DNA from: a virus
DNA: 24,902 bases
Virus record (IMG/VR): IMGVR_UViG_3300048686_000643
Span: 1-24,902 of that record
Reading direction: 5' to 3' (one strand)
Below are positions 4,909 through 21,041 of this stretch, in pieces. How positions within the stretch are numbered: position 1 is the first letter of the stretch; each line of letters opens with the position of its first letter. The notes below the pieces were generated by a model. It saw nothing but the letters and a program-made list of their open reading frames with translations, was not told the origin of the DNA and searched no databases. A program made the translations under genes and the position numbers.

Positions 4909-4936
4909 AACAATTCTTTTATTTTAACTTGGACTG

Positions 4937-11628: not shown

Positions 11629-11852
11629 TACGATTTAGATTCTTTTTTCTTCTTGTGTAATCCTACCAAGGTTTGACGCAACCGTGCTTGTTTCACGGTT
11701 TTTTCATCATACTCATCAGGATTAGAAAGAACGTTTTCTTGAAGCTGTGCAGAAGTGATTCCTTTACGTTTGGCTTTGGCAGTGAAGGCACCCTCCTTCA
11801 TGTCCATGCCTTGAATCCACTTCTTGTCTTTTTTCTTTTTGTTGTTAGTCAT
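11628..11852 (-). CDS. Small basic protein with a KEGAFTAKAK-type motif
   Basis: A 74-aa strongly basic protein; its ATG (11852) overlaps the stop of the 999-aa gene as ATGA. After a lysine-rich start it has MDMKEGAFTAKAKRKG at about 16-31, followed by ITSAQLQENVLSNPDEYDEK and a basic helix. I recall similar short 'GAFTAKAKRAGMSVQ...NPDKYS' segments in small proteins or protein ends of marine phages, where the role is unclear. Charge suggests contact with packaged DNA or with a nucleic-acid partner. Family recognition is from memory and tentative; the gene itself is well supported by overlaps on both sides. Confidence 0.72.
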   Translation of the reverse strand: MTNNKKKKDKKWIQGMDMKEGAFTAKAKRKGITSAQLQENVLSNPDEYDEKTVKQARLRQTLVGLHKKKKESKS

Positions 11853-14848
11853 GGCTTACTCCTATTGAGGTATTCTAATAGAAGATCTAATCCGCGACCC
11901 TCGATACCAAGTTGACGAGGATCTGCAGGAGAAGTACGAATGGGTCCACCACGGCGGAAAGCAGAACGCATCAGATCGTCACGCCAATCTTCTGCTCCAG
12001 GATTAATTCCATAGCGAGGAACATTGGTGACAGTTTCACCACGGAAGCCAAGGGCTTTGGCTGGTTTATCCATACGGGGATAAGCAATCCTCTGACCTTG
12101 AGGAGTGAGCTGTGTAACAGGAAGCCCACCTGCGCCTTGTACGGTTTGTTGAGTCATGCCACCAATACGAGATAAACCGGCAGATTGTGTCACAGGTCCA
12201 ATAGGTGCAGGCTCTATCCCAGTGACAAATTCTTGTTGTGGGTACAAACTGAAGTAACGTGATTTCTCGCCACGGCGGGTCAAGTCAATGCTTTGTGCAG
12301 GGGCACCGATATCACGTCGGATGCCAGGGGTTGTAGTCGTTGGGGGAGCGACAACAACTGTGCCTCCGCTCATCTCGCCAATAAAGGGACTTAAAGGAGT
12401 CGGTGAACTAACACCTTGACGGTACTGCGAGTAAAGAGTCCGCTTACTTGGATCGATACCTGGCATGCCTAAAGAAGGAAGAGCAGGTCCTTGAGCAGGT
12501 GGTGGAATCGGGCCAGGGAGTCTTGCAGGTGTCACGTATGGCTCGGCAGCTCTAACACCTTTGGCTTGAAGACCACCGGCAACGGCATCCGCCAAGAACG
12601 ACTGTGCGTTTGCTTCCACCTGAGCAGCGATAGCACGATTAGCTGGCGTACCGGCAACGTTGTAAACAGTACCAAGAACATCAGGATTGTCCTGGGTGAA
12701 ATAACGACCTGTCGGCGTCCCAATGGAACCGGTAATAGGAGGTGTTCTGAGTACAGTATTTGCCTTGCTTTTGCCTGTGAAGATGACAGGGCCTGCCGCT
12801 TCAGCAGCAGCACTTGTGTATACATCAGACGCACCAAGGATCGGGCCAATCTCCTCATCAGATGCATATCCAGTACGTAACTGTTGAACCGAAGGTAATT
12901 CTGGCAGTGGTTCAGAAGGATCTACGATCATGCCACGACGCAATGTTTCCATTGCGCGAGCTACATCTTGTGCAGGACCAGGGGCAATTGTTGGGCGTGG
13001 ATTGCGATTGCTTTGCAGAATTTCTTGCGTTGCAGCAATAGAAGCACGTGCACGATCTAAAGCATCTAACTGCAAACGAGTTGGTTCTGGATTATTTACT
13101 GCTCTGGTTTGTAATAATTGAGACGCAAACCTGGTGGTGTCTGCATCCAGCTTTGTAATTGGTTGGTTATTGGCAAGTGCTTGTTGGCCTTGAAGAACTA
13201 AATCTGTTAATTCTTCGTCAGAAGCAGATCTAAGTTTATTTAAACGTTCAGCCCTGGCTTTGTATTGTTCGCCTTGCCCTTGTCTAGCTTTTACTCCCGT
13301 ATCGGCAGAGGCATATTCTTGACCTGATTCATCCATATAACTAATATCTCCAGCCCTATTAAGTTTGCCGCCACGGAGAGCTTTGCCACGCATTGTGGAT
13401 TCAACTTCAGGAACATCGCCAAGCAACAGCGATACAACATCTTCTCCTTCAACAGCCGCTTGTGCTCCGCGAAGCTCTTGTCGTTGGCGGGCATTATCAA
13501 CGAGCTGCAACTCAGGATTTAATTCTTCCCGGTATTTTTTATTAAAGGCAGCAGCAAATTCTTGAGGAGATAACTGTTCGTTAACTACCGGTCTTTCTGC
13601 TTGAAGCTCTGCAAGAATTTGATTGGCTTGGTTCTGGAGAGCTTGTGCTGTTTCAATGCGATCACGCACTTGTGCAGCTTGTCTTATGTTTTCTGCAGAG
13701 TAATCAAAATCAGTATCAATTTCTTGTGCCCGCAGATACTGGCGAGCCTCTTGCACTAAAGGATCTTGTTCTTGCTCCAGGCCCAGAGCCCTGGGTGAAA
13801 CACGAACAGCTTGTCTCTGCCGTAAATCAAGTATGGGTTTACCTTGCCTTAATAATTCACGTACAGTTACACCTTCTGCTTGATCAATAGGAATGCCATC
13901 TGGTAATTGAGCGGCAGCCTGATTGATGGGTTCATCTGGTACATAGCCAATCATTTGAGATGGCTCTGCCTGTGCACGCATTAATGCATTATTTTGTTGT
14001 GCAATATTCTCAAGAATTTCGACCTGGCTCATATCCAGATCTTCATTACGGCTAAGCTGAGCCTTCATTCGTCCTGTCATCTGATCTTCACCAGACTCCA
14101 GGGCACCGATAGCTTGGTCTACAACTGGTCCACGTACGGCAGCACGTTCTTGTGCAATGATGTCGTCAGCAATACTGCTAATTAAATTGCGATACTCAGC
14201 TTGTGCTTTAGATTGAAAACTACGTGCTTCTGATAATTCTTCTGCAGCTTGTTTCTGAACTAAGGACAATAATTCTGGGTCTTGAGAAAGACGATCTGCT
14301 ACAGAAGCACCGCTTACATCACGGCTAAATTCACGAAATGTGCCGGGAGTACGCGAAATAGGTAGATCAGTTCTTGCATAAGGCAGCGTGCCAGTACCAA
14401 AGGGGTCAGTAATTGTTGTTTTACCGCTCCAGGGATCAAATGAAGTTTTAGGTTGTGGAAGATCTATCAGTACTGTACCAAGGGGACGTTCGGTTCTAGC
14501 TTGACGGACAACTTCTTCTGCAATTTGTTGACGTAGAGGAGCAGCAGAAACAGTACTTACAACCTGTTCAGTGTTTTTAGGAAGAGTAGAAGCAGTAGAG
14601 GCGGAAGCTTGGCCTCGTTTACCAGCTAATGCACGGGCAATACCCACACCACCCGCTAAAGCACCTAAGCCAAGGGCTGCAGCACCCAAGATACCGGGCA
14701 GATTTGACTCTTCTTGCGGCGCACGGAGCTGATTACGACGGAATTCAAGGACAGCCGGTGTAATTTGCGCCCTTTCTTCCGGATCTTCGGGATATGGAGT
14801 ACCAGTGGCGCGGCTGTAGGCGGCATAGTCGGCAGGAGATAACGCCAT
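11849..14848 (-). CDS. 999-aa coiled-coil protein, candidate internal virion/ejection protein
   Basis: The largest gene and the first of the minus-strand cluster, with ATG at 14848. Residues about 50-75 are one Gly/Ala-rich hydrophobic segment (PGILGAAALGLGALAGGVGI). Residues about 180-620 are dominated by Gln/Ala/Glu/Arg helices and probable coiled coils (QKAAEELSEARSFQSKAQAE; RIETAQALQNQANQILAELQ). The last 350 residues are Pro/Gly/Thr-rich, probably extended, ending LLLEYLNRSKP. No lysozyme or peptidase motif is visible. A large Gln-rich helical protein with a single membrane-type segment, at the head of a run of Gly-zipper proteins, suggests a pilot or tape-like component. That is inference only. 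Confidence 0.78.
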   Translation of the reverse strand: MALSPADYAAYSRATGTPYPEDPEERAQITPAVLEFRRNQLRAPQEESNLPGILGAAALGLGALAGGVGIARALAGKRGQASASTASTLPKNTEQVVSTVSAAPLRQQIAEEVVRQARTERPLGTVLIDLPQPKTSFDPWSGKTTITDPFGTGTLPYARTDLPISRTPGTFREFSRDVSGASVADRLSQDPELLSLVQKQAAEELSEARSFQSKAQAEYRNLISSIADDIIAQERAAVRGPVVDQAIGALESGEDQMTGRMKAQLSRNEDLDMSQVEILENIAQQNNALMRAQAEPSQMIGYVPDEPINQAAAQLPDGIPIDQAEGVTVRELLRQGKPILDLRQRQAVRVSPRALGLEQEQDPLVQEARQYLRAQEIDTDFDYSAENIRQAAQVRDRIETAQALQNQANQILAELQAERPVVNEQLSPQEFAAAFNKKYREELNPELQLVDNARQRQELRGAQAAVEGEDVVSLLLGDVPEVESTMRGKALRGGKLNRAGDISYMDESGQEYASADTGVKARQGQGEQYKARAERLNKLRSASDEELTDLVLQGQQALANNQPITKLDADTTRFASQLLQTRAVNNPEPTRLQLDALDRARASIAATQEILQSNRNPRPTIAPGPAQDVARAMETLRRGMIVDPSEPLPELPSVQQLRTGYASDEEIGPILGASDVYTSAAAEAAGPVIFTGKSKANTVLRTPPITGSIGTPTGRYFTQDNPDVLGTVYNVAGTPANRAIAAQVEANAQSFLADAVAGGLQAKGVRAAEPYVTPARLPGPIPPPAQGPALPSLGMPGIDPSKRTLYSQYRQGVSSPTPLSPFIGEMSGGTVVVAPPTTTTPGIRRDIGAPAQSIDLTRRGEKSRYFSLYPQQEFVTGIEPAPIGPVTQSAGLSRIGGMTQQTVQGAGGLPVTQLTPQGQRIAYPRMDKPAKALGFRGETVTNVPRYGINPGAEDWRDDLMRSAFRRGGPIRTSPADPRQLGIEGRGLDLLLEYLNRSKP

Positions 14849-15535: not shown

Positions 15536-15551
15536 GATACGAATTCGTATC
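15536..15551. repeat. 16-base palindrome GATACGAATTCGTATC, copy 1
   Basis: A perfect 16-base palindrome in the gene-free region, preceded by five T and followed by GCGCGCG. An identical copy is at 17390-17405. It could be a protein-binding site or part of a hairpin. Confidence 0.7.
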
Positions 15552-15672: not shown

Positions 15673-15849
15673 ATGTCTAATGCCAAGGTTTGGGTAGTAA
15701 CAGCCTGGGAAGAAGAGTATCAACTCCAGAATCTTTTCGCTAAGGAAGCAGATGCTCAAGCATGTGTTTCCAGGTGGAAGGACGACTTGCTTGACTCGGT
15801 AGAGATCAGGCTTGTCGATCTGTGGGAAGAAGACGTTCTTCCCTTCTGA
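15673..15849 (+). CDS. Hypothetical protein, 58 aa
   Basis: A 58-aa frame starting ATG at 15673 after the leader ATTCAACACC. The sequence starts with a beta-like segment (VWVVTAWEEEYQLQNLF), then a helix (AKEADAQACVSRWKDD) and an acidic C-terminus (LVDLWEEDVLPF). The order of a strand with an acidic turn, an Ala-rich helix and a second strand is like that of the 62-aa protein at 16443, so the two may share a fold, though direct identity is low. The stop codon lies in the 5' arm of the following T-loop element. No Shine-Dalgarno is visible. The function is unknown. Confidence 0.65.
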   Translation: MSNAKVWVVTAWEEEYQLQNLFAKEADAQACVSRWKDDLLDSVEIRLVDLWEEDVLPF

Positions 15850-15907
15850 TAGCTGGTGCGCAGCCGGGTTCGATTCCCGGCATCAGACTTGCCACAATCC
15901 AGTGGCA
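15845..15907 (+). ncRNA. T-loop type intergenic element, copy A1
   Basis: Hairpin I has the stem GCCGGG/CCCGGC (15863-15868, 15876-15881) around the heptaloop TTCGATT, a textbook tRNA T-loop. TCTGAT (15845-15850) pairs perfectly with ATCAGA (15882-15887) and encloses it; the stop codon TGA of the upstream gene lies in this stem. Hairpin II is TGCCAC-AATCCA-GTGGCA (15890-15907). The next ATG is 18 bases further. It is not a full tRNA, because the anticodon arm and CCA end are absent. Confidence 0.65.
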
Positions 15908-15925
15908 TTTATGGAATACAGAACC

Positions 15926-16105
15926 ATGGACATCTACTACACCATCGCCACCACTCAAGCCACGTATCACTTCGTGGTCAACACAGAGGTGGGTTTAGCT
16001 CGCATCACCAAGCTGGTCCGCAAGGGACAGAAGGGTAACGACTGCAGCACCACGATGTCAGTGGAGATGGCACGCAAACTTGTGCGTCAGCTCCAGGCCA
16101 GGTGA
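15926..16105 (+). CDS. Hypothetical protein, 59 aa
   Basis: A 59-aa protein starting MDIYYTIATTQATYHFVVNT. The ATG at 15926 is chosen because it follows the first T-loop element at the same spacing as in the sister cassette at 16443; an ATG 15 bases upstream is possible. The first half looks like a beta-hairpin with many Tyr and Thr. The second half is a basic stretch ending in an amphipathic helix (SVEMARKLVRQLQAR). It could bind nucleic acid or a host protein, but no family is recognised. A T-loop element lies on either side. Confidence 0.7.
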   Translation: MDIYYTIATTQATYHFVVNTEVGLARITKLVRKGQKGNDCSTTMSVEMARKLVRQLQAR

Positions 16106-16165
16106 GTTATAGCTCCCAAGCCAGGTGCAATGCCTGGCTCTGGTCATTGCCACAATCCCGTGGCA
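16103..16165 (+). ncRNA. T-loop type intergenic element, copy A2
   Basis: Hairpin I is GCCAGG/CCTGGC (16120-16138) around the loop TGCAATG, which still fits the T-loop rule U-N-C-R-A-N-N. Hairpin II is TGCCAC-AATCCC-GTGGCA (16148-16165). The enclosing stem is weak here: only TGA (16103-16105, the stop codon) with TCA (16144-16146) plus possible G-T pairs. The next start, GTG at 16182, is 16 bases further. Stem sequences differ from copy A1 while pairing is kept. Confidence 0.6.
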
Positions 16166-16181
16166 TCTACTCGATACGACA

Positions 16182-16361
16182 GTGACACAACGCATCGCAT
16201 CCTACGTGATTATTGCTGCTGCCATCATGGGTATCGGTGGCCAGGCCGTCATCCACTTTGTGGATAAGGCAACTGCTCACCAGTGCATCACTCATGACTG
16301 GCCTAAGGAGCATGACACGCTCCACCGTAACTGGTGTATCACCAACGGTTACGACATCTGA
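16182..16361 (+). CDS. Small membrane protein, 59 aa
   Basis: A 59-aa protein starting with GTG at 16182. This start is chosen because an upstream extension of the frame would run through the second T-loop element. Residues about 6-28 are one membrane helix (IASYVIIAAAIMGIGGQAVI). The C-terminal half is soluble and rich in His, Asp and Cys (ATAHQCITHDWPKEHDTLHR). A short N-terminal anchor with a polar His/Cys tail recurs in the 67-aa protein at 17161, which has a similar layout. Role unknown; small single-span proteins are common in early phage regions. Confidence 0.65.
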   Translation: MTQRIASYVIIAAAIMGIGGQAVIHFVDKATAHQCITHDWPKEHDTLHRNWCITNGYDI

Positions 16362-16424
16362 GTCCGTTAAAGCGGCGTTCCAGGGTGCAATCCCCTGGTT
16401 CAGACTTGCCACAATCCAGTGGCA
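16357..16424 (+). ncRNA. T-loop type intergenic element, copy A3
   Basis: TCTGAG (16357-16362, containing the upstream stop codon) pairs with TTCAGA (16399-16404), one pair being G-T. Inside is a loop of about 17 bases and hairpin I, CCAGGG/CCCTGG (16380-16398), with loop TGCAATC, again U-N-C-R-A-N-N. Hairpin II is TGCCAC-AATCCA-GTGGCA (16407-16424). The next ATG follows after 18 bases. The run from CAGACTTGCC to GTGGCAT matches copy A1 exactly. Confidence 0.65.
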
Positions 16425-16442
16425 TCTACTCAAGACAACACT

Positions 16443-16631
16443 ATGCAACTTTTTGCAGTTAGACGATCAGATGAGGGTTACACATCTGTCTGGCGTACAT
16501 ACGACGATGCTTATGCAGCGGCGGGTGAAGCACAGGCAATGGATCCGGAAGTTTGTTACTCGGTCGATACTATCGAACATGAGGAATTTGAAGACTTCTG
16601 GTTCCATAACCCACATCTTGATCTTCACTGA
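16443..16631 (+). CDS. Hypothetical acidic protein, 62 aa
   Basis: A 62-aa protein, ATG 16443, 18 bases after the third T-loop element. It begins MQLFAVRRSDEGYTSVWRTY, a likely beta-hairpin, followed by a helix (DDAYAAAGEAQAMDPE), a strand (VCYSVDTIEHE) and an aromatic, acidic end (FEDFWFHNPHLDLH). The strand/helix/strand order is like the 58-aa protein at 15673. The leader CTCAAGACAACACT has no Shine-Dalgarno and is nearly repeated before the next gene. The function is unknown. Confidence 0.72.
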   Translation: MQLFAVRRSDEGYTSVWRTYDDAYAAAGEAQAMDPEVCYSVDTIEHEEFEDFWFHNPHLDLH

Positions 16632-16651: not shown

Positions 16652-16900
16652 ATGCTGTGCTACTACCCGTACGAAGGTGCAACCGAGCGCATCACTTGGC
16701 ATGGCGGCACATCAACAAGGCTTCATTATGAAGTAGAAGTTGATGACTGCTATGGCAATCCTTGTTGGATTGAGCGTGAGGTCCAGACTCTTGGCGGTGG
16801 CATTCCCACCGGTACCAAAGAGTTGTTAGCTGCAATGTCTGATTACTATCAGCACATTACGACTTTGCACCTCGACAATCTCTACGCAACGATCTTCTGA
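16652..16900 (+). CDS. Hypothetical protein, 82 aa
   Basis: An 82-aa frame, ATG 16652, 20 bases after the preceding stop. The leader CTCAAGACAATATC closely matches the previous gene's leader, but there is no structured element in between, so the two genes probably form one cassette. The product is rich in Tyr, Glu and Cys: MLCYYPYEGATERITWHGGT, then a strand-rich centre (HYEVEVDDCYGNPCWIEREV) with two Cys four residues apart, and a C-terminal helix. The compact beta-rich appearance and Cys pair might suit a metal or disulphide site, which is speculative. Confidence 0.72.
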   Translation: MLCYYPYEGATERITWHGGTSTRLHYEVEVDDCYGNPCWIEREVQTLGGGIPTGTKELLAAMSDYYQHITTLHLDNLYATIF

Positions 16901-16910
16901 CTCTTGCACT

Positions 16911-16929
16911 AAAGGGCTTCGGCCCTTTT
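16911..16929 (+). terminator. Terminator-like hairpin with TTCG tetraloop
   Basis: Stem AAAGGGC/GCCCTTT around TTCG, a C(UUCG)G tetraloop, with a short T-run. It follows the 82-aa gene and is paired with the TGCAGGA hairpin just downstream. The T-run is short, so termination may be partial. Confidence 0.65.
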
Positions 16930-16930
16930 C

Positions 16931-16951
16931 TGCAGGACTCAATATCCTGCA
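16931..16951 (+). ncRNA. TGCAGGA leader hairpin, copy 1
   Basis: Perfect 7-bp stem TGCAGGA/TCCTGCA with the seven-base loop CTCAATA, 18 bases before the ATG at 16970. Nearly identical hairpins are at 17737-17757 and, with a shorter loop, 17421-17437. It takes the place that the TGCCAC hairpin has in the upstream cassettes. Confidence 0.6.
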
Positions 16952-17375: not shown

Positions 17376-17419
17376 AACCCTTCCGTCTTGATACGAATTC
17401 GTATCGGACTGTGGGTTTT
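17376..17419 (+). terminator. Terminator-like hairpin containing the 16-base palindrome
   Basis: AACCC (17376-17380) pairs with GGGTT (17413-17417) and TCC with GGA inside it. The perfect palindrome GATACGAATTCGTATC (17390-17405) forms the tip. TTTT follows. The palindrome is identical to that at 15536-15551, so the element may also be a protein site. Confidence 0.5.
17390..17405. repeat. 16-base palindrome GATACGAATTCGTATC, copy 2
   Basis: Second exact copy of the palindrome found at 15536-15551, here embedded in a terminator-like hairpin between two small genes. Confidence 0.7.
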
Positions 17420-17466: not shown

Positions 17467-17706
17467 ATGACTCCTAAAGCTGTTGAACAACTCCTCACAC
17501 AGGATGCTCGCCTGCTTGCCAGGAGAGATGCCCCTGTCATTGATCAAGAACTTGAAGAACAGCGTCAAGCTGCTCTCGAGATTTTTTTCCAATGGCAGGA
17601 TGGCATGCGTGAGTTCCAAGACCTCATGCCGTTCTGCGTGGTACTCCAACGTAAGGTAGATCTCAACAGGGATCTGCTTCGTTGGGAACGCAGGCATGAA
17701 GACTGA
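17467..17706 (+). CDS. Hypothetical helical protein, 79 aa
   Basis: A 79-aa protein starting MTPKAVEQLLTQDARLLARR. It is almost wholly helical and charged: PVIDQELEEQRQAALEIFFQ, then WQDGMREFQDLMPFCVVLQR and RDLLRWERRHED, suggesting a short helical bundle or coiled coil. The start has GGAG five bases upstream (GGAGAACC ATG), one of few Shine-Dalgarno-like sites in this array. Flanked by a terminator-like hairpin on each side, it looks like a one-gene cassette. No family recognised. Confidence 0.75.
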   Translation: MTPKAVEQLLTQDARLLARRDAPVIDQELEEQRQAALEIFFQWQDGMREFQDLMPFCVVLQRKVDLNRDLLRWERRHED

Positions 17707-17716
17707 CTTCTGCTCT

Positions 17717-17734
17717 AAGGGCCTTCGGGCCTTT
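17717..17734 (+). terminator. Terminator-like hairpin with TTCG tetraloop
   Basis: Stem GGCC/GGCC extended by G-T and two A-T pairs (AAG with TTT), around a C(UUCG)G tetraloop. Same design as 16911-16929 with different stem bases. The T-run is very short (TTTA). Confidence 0.6.
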
Positions 17735-17736
17735 AC

Positions 17737-17757
17737 TGCAGGACTCTATATCCTGCA
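17737..17757 (+). ncRNA. TGCAGGA leader hairpin, copy 3
   Basis: Stem TGCAGGA/TCCTGCA with the seven-base loop CTCTATA, one base different from copy 1. It lies 23 bases before the ATG at 17781. Confidence 0.6.
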
Positions 17758-20753: not shown

Positions 20754-21041
20754 ATGGAACAAGCCAAGAAGTATCCTGAACTCACCTGGACAAAGAATGA
20801 GTACCATCAACTGCAAGTTGCATTGGATGCACTCAAGAACATTCGCAACCGCGAAGATAGACGTCACATGATGGATCAACATCTTGATCCACATACGTAT
20901 GACGTACTTGATGAAGTGATTGGTATGTTAAGCGACGAGCTTGACTACGATCCAACACCTAGTGAACCTGGTGAACCACCCATCACTGCCGCAGAAATGC
21001 ATGCAGCTGCATGGAAAGAACACCAGGAAATGCATCGGTAA
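20754..21041 (+). CDS. Hypothetical helical protein, 95 aa
   Basis: A 95-aa protein, ATG 20754, starting MEQAKKYPELTWTKNEYHQL. Helices continue through QVALDALKNIRNREDRRHMM and DVLDEVIGMLSDELDY. A Pro-rich linker (PTPSEPGEPPI) then leads to a His/Ala/Glu/Met helix at the end (AAEMHAAAWKEHQEMHR). Acidic overall, no Cys, no membrane span. Single-gene cassette after element B5 and followed by a G/C-rich hairpin. Not recognised. Confidence 0.76.
   Translation: MEQAKKYPELTWTKNEYHQLQVALDALKNIRNREDRRHMMDQHLDPHTYDVLDEVIGMLSDELDYDPTPSEPGEPPITAAEMHAAAWKEHQEMHR

Follow-up and report, generated by a model that had tools for sequence, protein, structure and literature searches.

A tRNA-like RNA element without an anticodon arm recurs at gene boundaries of cyanophages and behind genes of their hosts

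In tRNA, D-loop nucleotides 18 and 19 contact T-loop nucleotides 55 and 56; the 19–56 pair is a flat face read by RNase P, and RNase Z clamps the same elbow (PMC4810234, PMC11693755). The elbow and the length of the acceptor are what RNase P, RNase Z and the CCA-adding enzyme measure (PMC4810234), the acceptor and T stems of tRNA summing to 7 + 5 = 12 base pairs (bp) (PMC4919913). Mimics of this fold are known from other RNAs: mascRNA and menRNA, from MALAT1 and MEN-beta, are tRNA mimics at the 3′ end of a longer transcript, and have a reduced D-arm from which two D-loop residues dock into the T-loop (PMC11693755). Here we describe an RNA element of this kind in IMG/VR virus record IMGVR_UViG_3300048686_000643, of which we analysed a stretch of 24,902 nucleotides (nt) (positions 1 to 24,902, hereafter the window). 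The window carries three copies of the element between small genes, each followed by a second structured module.

An Rfam 15 scan of the window gave no hits at the gathering score, and no Rfam family fits; at a permissive threshold, the scan yielded solely one weak match to mascRNA, apart from two hits due to chance. The mascRNA-menRNA (RF01684) match was confined to copy 1 and scored 18.2 bits (E = 1) against a gathering threshold of 42.5. In the Rfam scans of the window there was no Y RNA match, and cyanobacterial glnA and downstream-peptide riboswitch-like motifs were rejected for want of an Rfam hit. In neither the window nor the typed phages did ARAGORN predict a tRNA or tmRNA, and a relation to two-piece tmRNA was considered within the scope of the ARAGORN and Rfam searches; with no such prediction, no Rfam hit at the gathering threshold and no anticodon arm, the copies do not qualify as tRNA genes. 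The element shares with tRNA and the tRNA-like domain of tmRNA a 12-bp acceptor-plus-T helix, a C56-R57-A58 T-loop and a G18-G19-type elbow (RF00005 for tRNA), and with tmRNA the combination of such a domain with a pseudoknot, but it has neither an anticodon arm nor an encoded CCA. It resembles mascRNA and menRNA in the features given above; those, however, belong to mammalian long non-coding RNAs and have an anticodon-arm-like stem, whereas the element lies between or behind protein genes and nearly always lacks that arm. The bacterial Y RNA YrlA is a three-way-junction tRNA mimic, but a free small RNA bound by Ro60, whereas the element sits within mRNAs. RNase III punctuates the mRNAs of phage T7. 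The M3 and C4 antisense RNAs are phage RNAs processed by RNase P (PMC11143913), and all these sites are, as the element may be, structured processing sites in phage transcripts; unlike it, they do not form a repeated tRNA-like family, and T7 has no match. The 3′ tRNA-like structure of the plant virus TYMV is likewise a 3′ mimic with an elbow (PMC4810234), but these structures cap the genomic 3′ ends of RNA viruses and have a different architecture.

An initial annotation, made from the sequence alone, had noted three intergenic 6-bp hairpins with T-loop-like heptamers, each followed by a conserved second hairpin and a start codon, and had suggested that they may be tRNA mimics or may recruit tRNA-handling enzymes or ribosomes. 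The three hairpins are indeed present at 15863–15881 (TTCGATT), 16119–16139 (TGCAATG) and 16380–16398 (TGCAATC), each with the second hairpin 8 nt further on and then the start codon (Table 1). The 6-bp stem applies to copies 1 and 3, whereas copy 2 has 7 bp, and the elements extend beyond the intergenic space, their 5′ portions overlapping the stop codons of the genes before them, an overlap that had gone unnoticed. Also overlooked were a closing acceptor-like stem and a small middle hairpin, which complete an acceptor, D-like and T fold, and the status of the second hairpin as a separate module of the downstream gene. Folding of the three window copies and parsing of about 60 copies found solely through the second hairpin gave an element of 43–50 nt with an outer, acceptor-like stem (P1) of 4–8 bp, a middle D-arm-like hairpin (most commonly CCG-YNAAG-CGG, with variants GAG-UUAUAG-CUC, CUG-GUGCG-CAG and GGC-GUGA-GCC) and a T-arm (P3) of 4–8 bp with the heptaloop NNCRANN. 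Nearly all copies of that second-hairpin-found set fit the acceptor/T architecture without any T-loop constraint, and minimum-free-energy folding recovers P1, middle hairpin and T-arm in all three window copies (z −2.6 to −3.8, second hairpin included). The 3′ strand of the T-arm runs continuously into that of P1, so the two stems should stack, as in a coaxial acceptor/T minihelix of about 12 bp: together they comprise 12 bp in 118 of 164 members and 11 bp in the other 46 (splits 7+5, 6+6, 5+7 and others), a register obtained with a structural scan that itself allowed 11–13 bp. The anticodon arm is absent, with the exception of a short remnant-like arm in the copy of phage P60. The first P1 pairs are mostly A-U, not G-C, and the 3′ tail of phage copies is usually A-U-U-G-C-C, where the second module begins, the A-U-U being read through a membership filter that leaned towards U-U.

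The changes among copies preserve this fold. In 19 aligned copies, 98.3% of cells are paired and 11 pairs are doubly changed (slid controls, 31–45%). In 118 distinct rows, an alignment that was fitted to the covariance model, 97.3% of cells are paired, 14 of 16 pairs include double changes, and doubly changed cells number 420 against 97 after shuffling; slid controls across the alignments reach 31–50%. Cells with G-U exceed those with A-C by 148 to 6 (61 to 6 once a common mid-stem U-G pair is excluded), which identifies the plus (gene) strand as the functional RNA. A generic structural scan returned 207 distinct hits in 2.28 Mb and 16 in an equal-size Markov control, a ratio that is not an unbiased frequency because the scanned sequence was partly pattern-chosen. 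As the copies share ancestry, shuffles overstate significance, and what carries the argument is that double changes arose repeatedly and independently. At the level of sequence the covariation is overwhelming and the RNA fold well supported, and we regard it as virtually certain that the element is a tRNA-like RNA. The suggestion of tRNA mimicry is strongly supported in this respect: the covariance search found many homologues with covarying paired stems and T-loop heptamers.

Covariation extends to the elbow. The final two nucleotides in the loop of the middle hairpin change together with T-loop positions 55–56: the loop end AG or CG occurs with G55-C56 (106 of 109 rows with G55), GG goes with U55-C56 (six of nine rows with U55), and GA accompanies U55-U56 in L219 and L235, two copies unrelated to each other, where A19-U56 replaces G19-C56 as a Watson–Crick pair. 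The latter copies came to light because C56 was not required in the covariance search. The rule is followed independently by the copies in phage P-SSP7 (UUAAAG with UGCGAGU; UACAGG with UUCAAGU) and in hosts (loop UCUAGG with UUCAAUG), but it does not explain the S-RIP1 capsid copy or the class B copies (T-loop AUCRAAU, GUGA loop). Judged by these joint changes, the element would form the tRNA-type contact of 18–19 with 55–56, and the T-loop docking guessed at in the initial annotation becomes visible as covariation between the two loops. A class B pattern scan returned many chance protein-coding matches without a T-stem. In L094 (1616–1660), a class B element is directly followed by a second T-arm-like hairpin, GCCAGG-TGCAATG-CCTGGC. 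Protein-bound DNA palindromes, the counter-explanation raised at the outset, would fit the 18-nt sequence (18-mer) of the second hairpin, which is nearly invariant in contigs resembling Synechococcus phage S-EIV1. They do not fit stems that vary through G-U and hardly through A-C, elbow covariation, or a second hairpin that is elsewhere replaced by unrelated hairpins and pseudoknots, and we consider this explanation largely refuted already and almost certainly wrong.

More than 160 distinct copies were found; counts are lower bounds, both those from two pattern scans of viral sequence and one of genomes and those from the large genome searches, in which 31–40 candidates per genome were scored. 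The motif TGCCAC-N4..8-GTGGCA occurs exactly three times in the window, against 0.01 expected from dinucleotide shuffles, and the exact second-hairpin 18-mer is present in 51 IMG/VR contig stretches, with up to four copies per stretch. Matches to the 18-mer in L026 and L032 were due to chance, the rest of the element being absent there. Together with the covariance model, the 18-mer led to many IMG/VR contigs of up to 86 kb and to S-EIV1, to which a BLAST search of element variants in phages, otherwise mostly chance Pseudomonas matches, also pointed. The window, which includes a terminase gene, has a block of small rightward open reading frames (ORFs) adjoining a long leftward gene; the same gene layout surrounds the S-EIV1 copies, and we therefore take the window to be from an S-EIV1-like cyanophage, as far as sequence can tell. 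For the 999-amino-acid (aa) protein encoded at 11849–14848 (minus strand) and several neighbours, PHROG gave no match at E 0.001, which accords with a phage of the S-EIV1-like kind.

In several T7-like cyanophages, copies lie upstream of the major capsid gene (Syn5, S-TIP28, S-TIP37, P-SSP7, S-RIP1 and P60), well over 100 nt from the capsid start. Some are weak singly (E 0.01–0.2), yet all are at the same place; those of Syn5 and S-TIP28 are near-identical counterparts of window copy 1, and in S-CBP2 a T-arm also precedes the capsid gene. No match was found in T7, S-PM2, P-SSM2 or S-RIP2. In S-RIP2 (L405, about 20880–20930, minus strand) the leader of the capsid gene retains the downstream module TTGGCATTGGCCCTTACGAGGATACCC that its relatives have, with a plain hairpin in place of the tRNA mimic. 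The only near matches in Syn5 to the promoter sequence of its polymerase are at 4929 and 44797, far from the capsid-gene copy at 19.8 kb, which is thus probably inside a long transcript. Other phage copies precede small early genes. Across phages, 97 of 141 located upstream stop codons begin at offset +1 to +3 relative to the first base of P1, and the next start is usually 30–50 nt past the element.

Host copies assign the tRNA-like part to the message upstream. Among 194 genomes across the class, covariance-model matches were confined to the Prochlorococcus family, where at least 38 of 151 genomes have one (best E 9e-16); a pattern scan of the genome collection gave at least 118 rows, one of them real (L383, a Prochlorococcus chromosome). 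There are one or two copies per genome, in six genomes two about 10.9 kb apart, and an Rfam scan of nine host loci returned nothing but an unrelated tRNA. Most host copies examined follow a single gene family (MSQLTIKVSAKADAMIAQLQKEIFNRRRKK..., with a Lys/Ala/Arg-rich tail), 7–29 nt behind its stop codon; the product of this gene has no convincing Pfam, NCBIfam or PHROG family. These host copies end in UAUU or similar tails, and the second hairpin is absent. This position behind the stop codon and the missing second hairpin indicate that the tRNA-like part is by nature an element of the 3′ untranslated region (UTR). A few copies (L409, L413 and L420) are in mobile-element-like places and, like the phage copies, enclose the stop codon in P1. 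The uncharacterized gene family itself (L406, L407 and L439–L468) is present in one to four copies per genome, with a conserved N-terminal domain and the Lys/Ala/Arg tail; at the 3′ end there is a tRNA mimic, a terminator-like hairpin or neither of the two. Among 42 distinct 3′ ends, 20 have the strict element and a few more an imperfect version; in several others its place is taken by an ordinary hairpin that resembles a terminator and has a U-run. This replacement of the intrinsic terminator of sister gene copies, together with the repetition of the element along early phage operons, would suit an RNA that controls transcription, either as an unusual terminator or in the manner of the put RNAs of phage HK022, which modify RNA polymerase. 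We consider such a role improbable: a GC hairpin with an immediate U-tract was not found (phage tails are UUGCC, host tails sometimes U-rich), phage coding continues immediately, and a terminator needs neither elbow contacts nor a 12-bp register.

The second module, which starts about 2 nt past the tRNA-like part, is separate and exchangeable. Hairpin types include TGCCAC-AATCC-GTGGCA, GCCACAC-ACTGA-GTGTGGC, GCATCAC-ACTGA-GTGATGC and TGACAC-TTAG-GTGTCA, among others, and in 54 copies the hairpin gives way to an H-type pseudoknot, UGCCY-NNN-GCGG-AGAU-RGGCA-CCGC, whose second stem exists in several compensated versions (GCAG/CTGC, GAGG/CCTC, AGGG/CCCT and CCGG/CCGG). Module type tracks the downstream gene family (conditional entropy 0.67; 1.15 shuffled) more than the upstream one (1.12; 1.28 shuffled), so the second module most likely belongs to the next message. 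In the same conditional test the class of the tRNA-like part was predicted about equally by the upstream and the downstream gene; the test therefore did not assign this part to a gene, and the host copies did. In L060 (4754–4800), L208, L213, L270 and others, the pseudoknot is often followed by small hairpins that hold the Shine–Dalgarno sequence and start codon (CAGGAGATTCCTGTG, CACGGAGAACACCGTG).

Mimic and hairpin or pseudoknot might instead act jointly on a ribosome that terminates or re-initiates between tightly packed genes, in a manner comparable to tmRNA with its tRNA-like domain and pseudoknot or to an intergenic internal ribosome entry site. The ribosome recognizes the elbow (PMC4810234), the stop codon lies in P1 with the next start shortly beyond, and the hairpins with start codons just mentioned point the same way; we nonetheless hold such a translation device to be improbable too, as host copies are 3′ UTRs with the stop outside and no second module, capsid-gene copies are far from the start, and many downstream genes carry their own ribosome-binding features. 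The combinations of genes are mosaic, one upstream ORF family preceding 24 downstream families and one downstream family following 14 upstream families. Linkers of gene cassettes are known from T4 (PeaRL) and from the start-associated repeats of mycobacteriophages, and this mosaic, along with the identity of the 18-mer in many contigs, would be expected if the repeats served as homology for shuffling small gene cassettes. Homologous recombination does not, however, demand stems that change sequence while keeping pairing and tertiary contacts, and the host copies are few and far apart, which makes a linker role very improbable.

We favour, tentatively and short of calling it probable, a reading in which the element is a 3′-UTR tRNA mimic cut or capped by RNase Z-like 3′ processing, followed by an independent 5′ stabilizing module of the next message. 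Each unit would be two RNA modules within a polycistronic phage transcript: the mimic, as the 3′ end of the upstream message, would dock its D-like loop on the T-loop and stack its T-arm on the acceptor stem, placing the elbow about 12 bp from the 3′ end as in tRNA, and the hairpin or pseudoknot would form the 5′ end of the downstream message. Host RNase Z would clamp the elbow, measure the acceptor length and cut after a discriminator-like nucleotide between the modules, in the window at predicted positions of about 15888/15889, 16146/16147 and 16405/16406. The upstream mRNA would keep its stop codon and gain a tRNA-like, possibly CCA-tailed, 3′ end, and the downstream mRNA would start within 1–2 nt of a structure that resists 5′-end-dependent decay by RNase E and RNase J. 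Cyanobacteria have RNase Z, RNase E and the 5′–3′ exonuclease RNase J (PMC10989914); infection by P-SSP7 raises host RNase E, and its transcripts are said to be protected by antisense RNA (PMC9692554); mascRNA is a precedent for a tRNA-mimic 3′ end (PMC11693755). A paper on the activation of tRNA maturation, cited in PMC4919913, deals with U residues that follow the discriminator. Judged by such sequence features (elbow, acceptor length, no CCA after N73 and downstream U), the element has what an RNase Z substrate would need, a minority of members deviating at positions 73–75.

A cut on the 3′ side spares the phage stop codon and falls exactly between the modules, whereas one on the 5′ side usually removes the stop, which favours the former. 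The latter would be expected were RNase P the main user, cutting on the 5′ side of P1 so that the mimic caps the downstream message, or releasing it jointly with RNase Z as with mascRNA. That enzyme, too, recognizes the elbow and the acceptor length, phage and polycistronic mRNAs are among its known substrates (PMC11143913), and the host stop codons lie far enough upstream of P1 for such a cut to spare the ORF. In phages, however, the stop is mostly inside P1 and the message would be left without it; moreover, the first pairs are mostly A-U and the tail is A-U-U-G, with no RCCA 3′ of the acceptor stem. Cyanobacterial RNase P may not need CCA. Overall, we consider RNase P an unlikely main user. 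Several points also weigh against RNase Z-like processing. RNase Z usually prefers a mature 5′ end, whereas this fold is preceded by an entire message; in phage copies the tail runs directly into a hairpin, which might hinder the enzyme; and P1 would be unfolded by a ribosome that translates as far as the stop codon. In roughly one quarter of members the two stems add up to 11 bp instead of 12, the A-U-U is less uniform in hosts (UAUU, CUUA, GUUU), and the near-constant overlap with the phage stop codon is not required by a pure processing model. The initial annotation is partly supported as a whole, and the element may, as it proposed, recruit tRNA-handling enzymes.

The coordinates of the three copies are collected in Table 1. 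Elsewhere in the window, a 55-nt direct repeat (16897–16951 and 17703–17757, 85% identical) lies between small ORFs; it consists of an AAAGGGC-UUCG-GCCCUUUU hairpin and a second hairpin, GCAGGA...TCCTGC, a two-hairpin intergenic module unlike the tRNA-like one. A perfect 16-bp palindrome, GATACGAATTCGTATC, occurs at 15536–15551 and 17390–17405 within two copies of a 27-nt repeat and looks like an operator or promoter-linked site.

Table 1. Positions of the tRNA-like elements, their parts and the adjoining signals in the window
Feature	Position	Strand	Remarks
Copy 1, tRNA-like element	15845..15887	+	From folding and parsing of relatives
Copy 1, P1	15845-15850/15882-15887		TCTGAT/ATCAGA
Copy 1, D-like middle hairpin	15851-15862		CUG-GUGCG-CAG or similar
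Copy 1, T-arm	15863-15868/15876-15881		T-loop UUCGAUU, 15869-15875
TGA stop of upstream 58-aa ORF (15673-15849)	15847..15849	+	Inside copy 1 P1; geometry common to most relatives
Copy 1, second hairpin TGCCAC-AATCCA-GTGGCA	15890..15907	+	5′ module of next gene, ATG 15926
Copy 2, tRNA-like element	16096..16145	+	Relative in S-TIP37
Copy 2, P1	16096-16101/16140-16145		GGCCAG/CTGGTC
Copy 2, middle hairpin	16104-16115		GAG-UUAUAG-CUC
Copy 2, T-arm	16119-16125/16133-16139		7-bp stem; T-loop UGCAAUG, 16126-16132
TGA stop of 59-aa gene 15926-16105	16103..16105	+	Just 3′ of copy 2 P1 5′ strand
Copy 2, second hairpin TGCCAC-AATCCC-GTGGCA	16148..16165	+	5′ module of gene 16182-16361, GTG start
Copy 3, tRNA-like element	16357..16404	+	36.4 bits, E 2.5e-10 with covariance model R1
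Copy 3, P1	16357-16362/16399-16404		TCTGAG/TTCAGA
Copy 3, middle hairpin	16364-16375		CCG-UUAAAG-CGG
Copy 3, T-arm	16380-16385/16393-16398		T-loop UGCAAUC, 16386-16392
TGA stop of 59-aa gene 16182-16361	16359..16361	+	Inside copy 3 P1
Copy 3, second hairpin TGCCAC-AATCCA-GTGGCA	16407..16424	+	5′ module of gene 16443-16631, ATG start

Taken together, our data describe a previously unclassified RNA, tRNA-like but without an anticodon arm, that probably marks where tRNA-processing machinery separates or caps messages. More tentatively still, several unrelated lineages of cyanophages may have acquired a picocyanobacterial 3′-UTR mimic (or the reverse) and multiplied it as a message separator, with host tRNA 3′-maturation enzymes cutting polycistrons so that the upstream end is tRNA-capped and the downstream start is capped by a hairpin or pseudoknot; this would be like mitochondrial tRNA punctuation, but with dedicated anticodon-less mimics. 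The element would constitute a new and widespread class of structured RNA in viruses of the most abundant aquatic photosynthesizers and in their hosts, missed by Rfam and tRNA finders although the well-studied Prochlorococcus phage P-SSP7 carries a copy before its capsid gene. It also shows how a tRNA elbow evolves when there is no anticodon and nothing to decode, one of the changes being the switch of the 19–56 pair from G-C to A-U, and it makes testable how cyanophage messages may be separated and protected while host RNase E is induced, as in P-SSP7 infection (PMC9692554).
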